From Myxococcales bacterium (lineage in GTDB: Bacteria > Myxococcota_A > Polyangia > Haliangiales > Haliangiaceae), in assembly GCA_016794545.1 (NCBI GenBank), contig JAEUJX010000090.1, forward strand, positions 1 to 53,905: a stretch of DNA of 53,905 nucleotides, written 5' to 3'. The notes under the pieces are model-generated. The model made no database searches, was not told the DNA's origin, and worked only from the letters and a program-made list of their open reading frames with translations. The translations under genes and the position numbers were made by a program. This document shows positions 41,548-51,328 of this stretch, in pieces; the stretch's first letter is position 1, and every line of letters starts with the position of its first letter.

Positions 41548-41760
41548 ATGAAGCTGAAGGGCACGATCCGCAAGAACGCTCTCGAGGGCGGGCACTGGAC
41601 GCTGGAGACCGACAAGGGCGAGACGTATCAGCTCGCCGGCAAGCTCGAGGGCTGCAAGGACGGCATGAAGGCCGAGGTCGAGGGGAAGGTGGACAAGGGG
41701 GCGATGGGAATCGGCATGACCGGGCCGCACTTCGAGGTGCAGAAGCTCCACGCTCTCTGA
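41548..41760 (+). CDS. Small beta-rich hypothetical protein (DUF5818/OB-like)
   Basis: This is a 70-residue protein from ATG 41548. The pattern KLKGTIRKNALEGGHWTLET followed by YQLAGK and AEVEGKV resembles small OB-fold proteins annotated as DUF5818, though I am not sure of the family. No signal peptide. It lies 14 bases before the selenoprotein candidate and may be co-transcribed with it. Confidence 0.6.
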   Translation: MKLKGTIRKNALEGGHWTLETDKGETYQLAGKLEGCKDGMKAEVEGKVDKGAMGIGMTGPHFEVQKLHAL

Positions 41761-41774
41761 GACAATCGCCGCCG

Positions 41775-42785
41775 ATGGGCCTGCCGTACTTCGGCTACAC
41801 CGAATCGACCGGCGAGCTGCGCGAGATCTACGAGCGCATGCGCGAGCGCCCGCTGCCGCCCGTGTATCGCCCCGCCCACGGCGGAGTGCCCGGCATCATC
41901 ACAGCGCACTCGCTCGATCCGCAGCTGATCCCGAAGGTGTTCGGGACCTCGACGACCCTCAACGGCGCGGGCCCCCTGTCCTGGCCCGAGCGCGAGCTGG
42001 TGAACACGATCACCTCGCGTCTCAACCAGTGCCTCTATTGAACGGCCTGTCACGCAGAGTTTCTGCGTGTCGCGCTTGATGGTGACGACGCCCTGGCGGC
42101 GGCGGTGGTCCGGGCTCCGCGCGCGCCGCATGGCGATCGGCGCACGCGCGCCCTCGGCGAGATCGCGAGCCTCGTCACCCTCGAACCGTGGACGCTGTCG
42201 CGCGCCTACCACGCCGATTGGCACTCCGCTGGCCTGTCCGACGACGACATCCTCCACGCGATCGTGCTGTCCGCGTTCTTCGGCCACCTGAACCGGATCG
42301 CCGACGCCGTCGCCGTCCCGCTCGACTACCAGGTCCGGCTCTCGCCGCCCCCGACCGATCCGACCGCGCCGCCGCTGCTGCCGTCGCCTGTCGCCGTGAC
42401 CGGGCGCCCCGCCATCGAGCTGTCCCGCCGCCCCGCCACCGCGCAGGCGATCGCCGCGTGGCGGACGTACATCTTCGACCGGGACGCACCGCTCACCCGC
42501 CGCCAGCGCACCGTCCTCGCGCGCTGGGTCTCGCTGTTCCTCGGCGACGGTGGGATCTCCACGCCCGACGACCTCACCGCGAACCCGATCGACGGCGCGC
42601 TCCGCGAGCTCGCCGAGACCATCACGCTCGCGCCGTGGAAGCTCTCCGACGAGACGTTCCGGCCGCTGCGCAAGCACGGCCTCGACGACGCCGCGATCTT
42701 CGACGCATGCGCCGTGACCTCGAGCGCCGGCTTCTTCTCGCGCGTGCAGGTCGCTCTCGCGACGCTGATGCGCGACCGAGCGTGA
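41775..42785 (+). CDS. AhpD-like (carboxymuconolactone decarboxylase family) protein, candidate selenoprotein with in-frame TGA as Sec89
   Basis: This is a 336-residue reading that passes one in-frame TGA at 42039-42041. Residues 67-93 (PLSWPERELVN..., then NQCLY-TGA-TACHAEFL) match the AhpD redox site: Glu74, Cys86, x-x, position 89, x-x-x, His93. These spacings equal Glu118/Cys130/Cys133/His137 of mycobacterial AhpD, so TGA occupies the resolving/peroxidatic Cys position. The frame continues with full family resemblance (LSDDDILHAIVLSAFFGHLNRIADAV), then a second, CxxC-less related domain to residue 336. A SECIS-like hairpin follows the TGA. Ordinary gene callers would split it at 42041 and restart near 42105. 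Predicted role: peroxide or alkylhydroperoxide reduction. Confidence 0.82.
42039..42078 (+). promoter_or_regulatory. Candidate bacterial SECIS element with Sec codon TGA
   Basis: After TGA (42039-42041), CACGCAGA at 42051-42058 pairs perfectly with TCTGCGTG at 42062-42069 around the loop GTT. The apical loop lies 17 bases after TGA and starts with G. Both fit the relaxed bacterial SECIS pattern (UGA to loop roughly 16-37 bases, G in the first two loop positions). Weaker pairs (G-C, T-G, C-G, G-C) extend the lower stem past a T-T mismatch. Confidence 0.75.
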
Positions 42786-45272: not shown

Positions 45273-45755
45273 CTAATCGTTGAAGAGGTTGTCGATGTCG
45301 TCGTCGGTGATCTCGCTGAACACCGACTGCTGGCCCGCGCCGCTCTGGCTCTTCTTCACCATCACCTCGAGGACTCCCACGAGCTCGGTGGTCGCCTTGC
45401 GGACGCGCAGGCGAACGAGGCCGAGCGAGCTACGGCCGTCGAACAGCACGACCAGGATGACGCGCTGACCGACGATCGAGACGTGGTAGCTGATCTTCTC
45501 GCCCTCGAGGAACTGACCGGCGAACTCCTTCTCGGCGAGGAGTGACGCGATGCCGCCCGTCGCGGCGACGTTACCGGCGGTCAGCGACGACAGCGATGTG
45601 ACATCGAGCTCGTGCACGTCGCCGGCGGACGCCATGGCCTGCCCGTTCTTGTCGATGACGAGCACCGCCTTCGCGTTGGAATCTCGGTGGAGGTTCTCGC
45701 AGATCTGATTGATCTGGTGGAGCTCCTCCTCGTACATGACGAGCTGTTGGATCAT
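45273..45755 (-). CDS. mglB: MglB, Roadblock/LC7 GTPase-activating protein of MglA
   Basis: This is a 160-residue protein. QLVMYEEELHQINQIC opens a Roadblock/LC7 fold; DVTSLSSLTAGNVAATGG and SLGLVRLRVRKA are shared with M. xanthus MglB, as is the acidic end SEITDDDIDNLFND. MglB dimers stimulate GTP hydrolysis by MglA and set the lagging pole. Ribosome site GAGGAG precedes the start at a good distance. The 115-base gap to recR should hold the operon promoter, though no clear boxes are visible. Confidence 0.96.
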   Translation of the reverse strand: MIQQLVMYEEELHQINQICENLHRDSNAKAVLVIDKNGQAMASAGDVHELDVTSLSSLTAGNVAATGGIASLLAEKEFAGQFLEGEKISYHVSIVGQRVILVVLFDGRSSLGLVRLRVRKATTELVGVLEVMVKKSQSGAGQQSVFSEITDDDIDNLFND

Positions 45756-50032: not shown

Positions 50033-50072
50033 AAAAAGCTGCGAGCGACGACTCGTTCGAATCGTCGCTCGC
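50033..50072 (-). terminator. Rho-independent terminator after the SRP RNA gene
   Basis: On the minus strand GCGAGCGACGA (50072-50062) pairs perfectly with its complement at 50051-50041 around a 10-base loop. AGC and five T follow at 50037-50033. It lies 7 bases after the SRP RNA end and should close the tRNA/tadA/SRP RNA transcription unit. Confidence 0.88.
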
Positions 50073-50078
50073 GGGAAA

Positions 50079-50163
50079 GGTGGCCCCAGGCACCCGCTAA
50101 TCACGCTACCGTTGCTTCCTTCCGGACCTGGCGGGGTTCACGGATGTCACGTCACCCGGGACC
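50079..50163 (-). ncRNA. ffs: Signal recognition particle RNA, small bacterial 4.5S type
   Basis: The minus strand carries AGGTCCGGAAGGAAGCAAC (50111-50129 region), the conserved domain IV with GGAA tetraloop and the asymmetric loop that binds Ffh. Flanking GGT...ACC ends close the helix with bulges, giving about 85 nt. No Alu domain is present, so it is the short form. Ends are estimated from pairing. Confidence 0.88.
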
Positions 50164-50196
50164 ATAAACTCGGTCACGCATGTGGTCGGGCGGCAG

Positions 50197-50281
<85 letters not shown>

Positions 50282-50347
50282 AGTACGGGGTTCCGTCGGT
50301 ATCGTGCGCGGGAAGCGCGCCCTTCGGGCGCTTCTCGCGGGTAATTG

Positions 50348-50432
50348 CGGAGGAGGAGGGATTTGAACCCCCGGTACCTTGCGGTACATCTGATTTCGAA
50401 TCAGACACCATCGGCCACTCGGACACTCCTCC
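50348..50432 (-). tRNA. tRNA-Ser (anticodon CGA)
   Basis: The acceptor GGAGGAG/CTCCTCC, anticodon arm CTGATT-CGA-AATCAG, a long variable arm and T arm ending CCCTC are visible. Discriminator G. CCA not encoded. Reads UCG. It begins 16 bases after the tadA stop on the same strand. Confidence 0.95.
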
Positions 50433-50448
50433 AGAACTAGCTTGGCGC

Positions 50449-50916
50449 CTACGCCGAGTATGTCGGGCCCGAGCGGAGGCGTTTGAAGAATGCCGACAGC
50501 TCGGCCGCGCACTCGTCGGCGCGGACACCGCTCGTGACCTCGACGCGGTGATTGAGCCGCGGATCGGTGACGAGCTGATACAGCGTGGTGACGGCGCCGG
50601 CCTTCGGGTTCGTGCAGCCGAACACGAGGCGAGCGACGCGTGCGTTGACGATGGCGCCGGCGCACATCGGACACGGCTCCTGCGTGACGTACAGGGTGCC
50701 TTCGACGCGCCACATTCCGAGCTGCTTCGCCGCGGCACGAAGCGCGACGATCTCGGCATGAGCGGTCGGATCGCTGTCCGCCTCGCGCCGGTTGTGACCG
50801 GTCGCGACGAGCGCATCGCCGATGACGATCACACAGCCGACCGGGACATCTCCGGCGGCCCCCGCAACGCGCGCCTCGTCGAGGGCGCGCTGCATCCAGT
50901 GCTCGTCATTCGTCAT
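50449..50916 (-). CDS. tadA: tRNA-specific adenosine deaminase TadA
   Basis: This is a 155-residue zinc deaminase converting A34 of tRNA-Arg(ACG) to inosine. The zinc/catalytic motif HAE (53-55) and PCPMC (Cys82, Cys85) are present, with GHNRRE and FGCTNPKAGA as in TadA. The essential bacterial substrate, tRNA-Arg(ACG), is encoded 5 bases upstream on the same strand. Both flanks carry tRNA genes. Confidence 0.95.
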   Translation of the reverse strand: MTNDEHWMQRALDEARVAGAAGDVPVGCVIVIGDALVATGHNRREADSDPTAHAEIVALRAAAKQLGMWRVEGTLYVTQEPCPMCAGAIVNARVARLVFGCTNPKAGAVTTLYQLVTDPRLNHRVEVTSGVRADECAAELSAFFKRLRSGPTYSA

Positions 50917-50921
50917 GCTGG

Positions 50922-50994
<73 letters not shown>

Positions 50995-51029
50995 TCATTC
51001 GATCGAACAGAAACTCTCGCCGAGTGCGG

Positions 51030-51120
<91 letters not shown>

Positions 51121-51237
51121 AGGCAAAGCCCAGAAGCAAGATCACGAATCAAAACGTACGGAAATCGGGCGGGGACGCCGTCGCGGAGGACGACGTCCCG
51201 CCCATGACCACTTGCGTGACACTATTCGATTATCAAG

Positions 51238-51328
<91 letters not shown>

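Follow-up and report, generated by a model that had tools for sequence, protein, structure and literature searches.

The stretch of DNA analysed here (the window; 53,905 nucleotides, GC content about 0.70) belongs to a draft genome of 8.49 Mb in 780 contigs. Between positions 41775 and 42785 it contains a frame whose only internal stop codon is a TGA, codon 89, within the peptide QCLY-U-TACHAEFLRVA (Table 1). Under standard rules the frame is split into an open reading frame of 88 amino acids (41775-42041) and one of 226 amino acids with a GTG start (42105-42785), and routine annotation would thus give two fragments for what appears to be one conserved selenoprotein gene. The initial annotation, which was made from the sequence alone, had pointed to the single in-frame TGA at 42039 in the context CLY-TGA-TACH and had predicted such a pair of broken genes; both observations held when the frame was re-read. 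The small gene preceding this frame is also found upstream in six other orthologue loci, with 60-89% identity, and the conserved pairing suggests that the two genes are co-transcribed. Its 70-residue product scored 21.5 bits against the Pfam family DUF5818, below the cut-off of 27.

Table 1 Features of the window discussed in the text
Feature	Position	Strand	Remarks
Small upstream gene, 70 aa, weakly DUF5818-like	41548..41760	+	Ends 14 nt before the start of the predicted selenoprotein gene
Predicted selenoprotein gene, two-domain AhpD-like	41775..42785	+	ATG start, 336 codons plus stop; frame and single TGA common to 13 intact orthologues
Domain 1, predicted active AhpD/CMD domain (about residues 36-181)	41880..42319	+	Pfam CMD 43 bits versus 23; PDB profile matches
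Predicted active-site set Glu74, Cys86, Tyr88, Sec89, His93 (AhpD proton-relay set)	41994..42053	+	Invariant in 13 orthologues
In-frame TGA, predicted selenocysteine 89 (CxxU)	42039..42041	+	TGA in 13/13 orthologues; TGC (Cys) there in single-domain Cys paralogues
SECIS-like hairpin CACGCAGA-GUU-UCUGCGUG	42051..42069	+	8 bp; loop GUU at 42059-42061; hardly any synonymous variation from H93 to R98
Domain 2, degenerate AhpD-like repeat without CxxC/U	42375..42782	+	Short LGDGGIS loop (about 42540-42560) probably replaces the active-site helix
Roadblock/LC7-domain protein	45273-45755	-	
Four tRNA-Ser (GGA, CGA, GCT, TGA), tRNA-Arg(ACG), small SRP RNA	50071-51328	-	Cluster

Taken alone, the open frame beyond the TGA is weak evidence, since a run of 247 stop-free codons is only mildly surprising at the local composition (P about 0.07, first-order Markov model), and the selenocysteine (Sec) reading therefore has to be decided by comparison; codon-position GC is equal on either side of the TGA (GC3 0.92 and 0.92). 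Orthologues were searched for at the levels of family, order and phylum, mostly in draft assemblies and with class and phylum sampled. Thirteen intact two-domain genes were obtained (L012, the window gene, and L015, L016, L017, L018, L020-L024 and L052-L054), which share 38-82% identity and span two taxonomic families, as L052-L054 come from another family of the same class; the nearest named relative found is L015, from a metagenome assembly also labelled 'Myxococcales bacterium'. In all thirteen, codon 89 is TGA and the sole internal stop, and the residues directly after it are some of the best conserved in the protein. Comparison with the closest orthologue (L016, 82% identical) gave dN values of 0.12 before the TGA, 0.14 in the rest of domain 1 and 0.10 in domain 2, set against dS values of 0.62, 0.53 and 0.49, respectively; the codons 3' of the TGA are under purifying selection. 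Many distant single-domain relatives likewise have TGA at the corresponding codon and others have TGC (Cys), the paralogues with Cys being L014, L032, L065, L067, L071, L073 and L076. No two-domain form with Cys was found in the sampled class and phylum, and the lineage thus seems committed to Sec in this form, although a Cys version may exist, since class and phylum were represented by samples. A search of plasmids returned single-domain relatives only, with about 30% identity, and a PHROGs scan found nothing. Frame-broken copies occur in two draft assemblies, G001 (L025/L031, on G001:C693) and G401 (L055), and in a further draft assembly, G003 (L026), only a stretch of domain 2 was matched; either decay or assembly errors may account for these copies.

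A SECIS-like hairpin lies immediately 3' of the TGA; with the U of UGA taken as nucleotide 1, its loop opens with a G at nucleotide 21. As this region also encodes the conserved helix HAEFLRV, conservation of the amino acids and of the RNA had to be separated. The alignment contains 49 degenerate columns with an amino acid common to all 13 orthologues, and the codon is invariant in 10 of these; five of the six columns from H93 to R98 are codon-invariant and the sixth has TTT in 12 of 13 sequences, compared to 5 of 43 among the other columns (hypergeometric P about 7e-4). The codons that are kept are rare elsewhere in the orthologue genes, where GCA, TTT and CGT account for 6%, 13% and 8% of their synonyms, respectively. 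All seven core pairs can form in 12 of the 13 orthologues and six in the remaining one, and Cys paralogues retain two to four of the seven. Folding of the single sequence (52 nt from the TGA onwards) was no more stable than that of shuffled sequences (z -0.94), and synonymous resampling of the peptide of the window gene produced 7/7 pairs in 1.7% of the draws; for these reasons the case for the hairpin rests on its conservation. Many CxxU paralogues of the phylum possess a hairpin at the same distance from the TGA, with compensatory changes at pair 17-27 (C-G to G-C) and at pair 15-29 (C-G to U-A), and 33 of 37 Sec sequences have G as the first nucleotide of the loop. In 18 selected sequences, paired cells amounted to 79.2%, a value reached by 1 of 500 shuffles, and the covariation score was 0.176 (7 of 500); counts of double-change pairs and of pair types were not above those of the shuffles. 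In four paralogues (L027, L028, L062 and L075) precisely this stem is not used, and the best-scoring hairpin there places its loop at nucleotide 28-29. An Rfam scan around the TGA gave no family above threshold. A covariance model of the hairpin, which was built with the sequences of the window gene, L029, L072 and L074 and without that of a second CxxU gene of the genome on contig C625, had as its only strong genome-wide matches the window gene and this C625 gene; no further selenoprotein genes emerged from this search, whose model derives from AhpD-type hairpins and would miss other types.

The genome also encodes the machinery for Sec insertion. A tRNA-Sec with the anticodon UCA is located at C399:15018-15113 (74.6 bits versus a cut-off of 47), selA on C770 (E 2e-156) and selD, which is free of internal stops, on C646 (E 2e-96). 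The gene selB was found in two pieces, an N-terminal one truncated by the end of C773 and one of 501 amino acids truncated by the end of C233; we read the two as a single gene cut by a contig break. The conserved TGA, the conserved hairpin and the presence of tRNA-Sec, selA, selB and selD argue that 41775-42785 is very probably one intact selenoprotein gene, a reading that is computational throughout. The initial annotation had made the same assignment and had named the observations that could sustain it. Those of its suggested checks that were run all spoke for the assignment: the tRNA and the sel genes that it had suggested looking for are all present, single-domain relatives have Cys where the window gene has Sec, a conserved hairpin follows the TGA, and the intact orthologues preserve the TGA with no other stops.

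Three readings in which no Sec is inserted at codon 89 have to be weighed against this assignment. A nonsense mutation could have broken an AhpD-like gene in the source genome, and the standard code does read TGA as stop; in addition, copies that are incomplete or frame-broken are present in three relatives. A pseudogene is nevertheless in practice refuted by the TGA that thirteen intact orthologues have in common in the absence of any other stop, and with purifying selection downstream of the TGA and the Sec machinery in the genome we regard it as extremely improbable. Hardly more credible is the production of two proteins, an N-terminal one of 88 residues that ends at a true UGA stop and a C-terminal one of 226 residues made by reinitiation. 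An open frame from the GTG at 42105 exists for the latter, and some termination at the UGA is usual in selenoprotein genes; the split, however, would sever the CxxU active site and sacrifice the invariant HAEFLR helix, whose codons lie between the TGA and 42105, and hardly any part of the protein is better conserved than the residues following the TGA. An organism-wide reassignment of TGA to Trp, Cys or Gly, for which no supporting point was found, can be practically dismissed, because TGA terminates both the upstream gene (41758-41760) and the window gene itself, and the genome contains the sel genes together with a tRNA-Sec whose anticodon is UCA.

The preferred reading, a selenoprotein with Sec at position 89, places this residue in an active site of the AhpD type. 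Domain 1 matched the PDB entries 6k40, 3c1l, 2pfx, 2oyo and 2prr, with E-values down to 1e-23 when a profile was used, and the NCBIfam profile TIGR01926 (peroxidase-related) was matched with 125.8 bits (cut-off 81.8). The spacing E74-x11-C86-x2-U89-x3-H93 equals that of Glu118, Cys130, Cys133 and His137 of AhpD from M. tuberculosis, whose relay residues are Glu118, Cys130, His132, Cys133 and His137 (PMC3141380); the initial annotation had recognised the AhpD catalytic set in the spacing of Glu74, Cys86, Sec89 and His93, and these residues proved invariant in 13/13 orthologues. In contrast to the M. tuberculosis enzyme, Tyr88 takes the place of His132, a replacement also described for PA0269 and Sestrin2 (PMC3141380, PMC4674687). 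An extended CxxUxxC site involving the additional Cys92 was considered and rejected, since several orthologues have Gly or Ala in place of Cys92.

A SelB-bound ribosome most probably reads UGA 89 as selenocysteine under the direction of the hairpin just 3' of it, with selenocysteine supplied by the tRNA-Sec, SelA and SelD of the genome. The following redox cycle is inferred from the invariant residues together with the mechanism of the characterised AhpD. Cys86 and Sec89 would form the redox pair (Cys86-x2-Sec89) of the N-terminal domain, and Glu74, Tyr88 and His93 its proton relay. The substrate attacked by the selenolate of Sec89 would most likely be either a (hydro)peroxide or a disulfide; resolution by Cys86 would give a selenenylsulfide, from which a cellular thiol system would regenerate the enzyme. 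Peroxidase chemistry is slightly favoured by the conservation of the complete proton-relay set Glu/Cys/Tyr/Sec/His and by the subfamily match to the 'peroxidase-related' TIGR01926. A selenoprotein that serves mainly as a thiol-disulfide oxidoreductase or adaptor, or that catalyses another reaction of the CMD fold, is a serious possibility, although one that we rate somewhat below an even chance: AhpD is described as an adaptor for AhpC, in addition to having peroxidase activity of its own (PMC3141380), and the CMD fold also comprises enzymes that are not peroxidases, among them the debrominase Bmp8, which was among the fold matches of a weak structural model of the window protein. The sequence is compatible both with a peroxidase in its own right and with an adaptor that serves a peroxiredoxin in the way AhpD serves AhpC.

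The second domain gave no Pfam match above the cut-off. A profile of domain 2 matched the C-terminal halves of 2oyo (E 1.5e-11), 6k40 (E 1.3e-10) and 2prr (E 1.5e-7), profile-profile comparison of domain 1 with domain 2 gave an E-value of 9e-11, and in a pairwise alignment of the two (Z 6.2) the CxxU stretch lies opposite a gap. The matches to AhpD structures and to domain 1, together with this gap, identify the predicted protein as a fused AhpD-like dimer with a degenerate second half; the lack of a CxxC in the second domain, which the initial annotation had stated, is evident in the alignments of orthologues and domains alike. Domain 2 has probably lost the active-site helix; its likely role is either to stand in for the partner subunit of an AhpD-type dimer or to act in binding or regulation. 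An AlphaFold model computed from two sequences was poor (pLDDT 49); its top fold matches were AhpD-like chains and Sestrin2 was among the matches spanning both halves, which for a model of this quality is only suggestive.

This arrangement recalls the Sestrins, in which Sesn-A is active and Sesn-C degenerate (PMC4674687). Sestrins consist of two fused AhpD-like domains, an active first one and a second one without the active-site helix, and the sequence of the window protein points to the same layout; the initial annotation had not remarked on this domain order. Sestrins differ in having a single Cys and no Sec, and their DDYDY hinge is absent from the C-terminal domain of the window protein, where LGDGGIS is found in its place. 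The full profile matched Sestrin-2 with an E-value of 0.002, over domain 1, and no sequence evidence joining the second domains of Sestrin and window protein was found. According to a 2024 review of Sestrin ancestry, deletion of the C-terminal active-site helix is a key difference of Sestrins from prokaryotic fused AhpD proteins, and the two bacterial fused AhpD proteins with one dead domain discussed there keep the Cys in the C-terminal domain (PMC11429811). It can be proposed tentatively, and with more doubt than confidence, that the window protein represents a Sec-only bacterial family with the domain order of Sestrins, in which the C-terminal helix was deleted and the domain acquired a new task, for example the binding of a ligand or partner. 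A fused AhpD layout with one active and one dead domain provides a bacterial comparison for a possible origin of Sestrins and a testable system for the question of what its second domain gains.

Selenoproteins of the AhpD-like CxxU type and CMD-like selenoproteins were found in data from the Sargasso Sea and the Global Ocean Sampling (PMC1088965, PMC2398784), and a 2026 review places them under TIGR01926, PF02627 and NF041238 (PMC13188914). The initial annotation was thus correct that such proteins had been reported before, and as they form an established family (PMC1088965, PMC13188914), its claim is less novel than it might seem; novelty is limited, and the unusual part is the two-domain architecture. 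With the known members (COG2128/TIGR01926, CMD-like) the window protein shares the CMD/AhpD fold, Sec as the second residue of the CxxU pair and a TIGR01926 score above the cut-off, and it differs from them by the degenerate AhpD domain added C-terminally. A term search of PMC1088965, PMC2398784 and PMC13188914 found no description of such a fused second domain, and a full-text search of the paper collection consulted found none joining Myxococcota with selenoproteins, selenocysteine and SECIS. The family NF041238 (AhpD_rel_CFYUT, 357 aa) resembles the window protein in its two-domain size and in the CxYUT motif within an AhpD domain, and domain 1 matched its C-terminal half (E 1e-18). Over the full length, however, the score of 53.8 bits was far below the cut-off of 175, with the match limited to profile positions 217-339, and the Sec domain of NF041238 is C-terminal (Sec near residue 235), whereas that of the window protein is N-terminal. 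NF041238 occurred in 25 of 189 sampled genomes of the phylum, all outside the class of the window. The peroxidase-related AhpD proteins of the solved structures 2PRR (YP_296737.1), 3C1L, 6K40 and 2OYO have the same catalytic set and their sequences match both halves of the window protein, but they carry Cys instead of Sec and a single such domain per chain.

The second AhpD-like CxxU gene of the same genome, L013, is located on the minus strand at G000:C625:8484-8834 and has the motif CEFUTAAH; in its relatives L029, L072 and L074 the TGA is followed by a hairpin whose loop is GGUC. Many more CxxU AhpD-like genes of the single-domain type, each with an in-frame TGA and together representing several subfamilies, were observed across the phylum (L056-L064, L066, L068-L070, L072, L074, L075 and L077).
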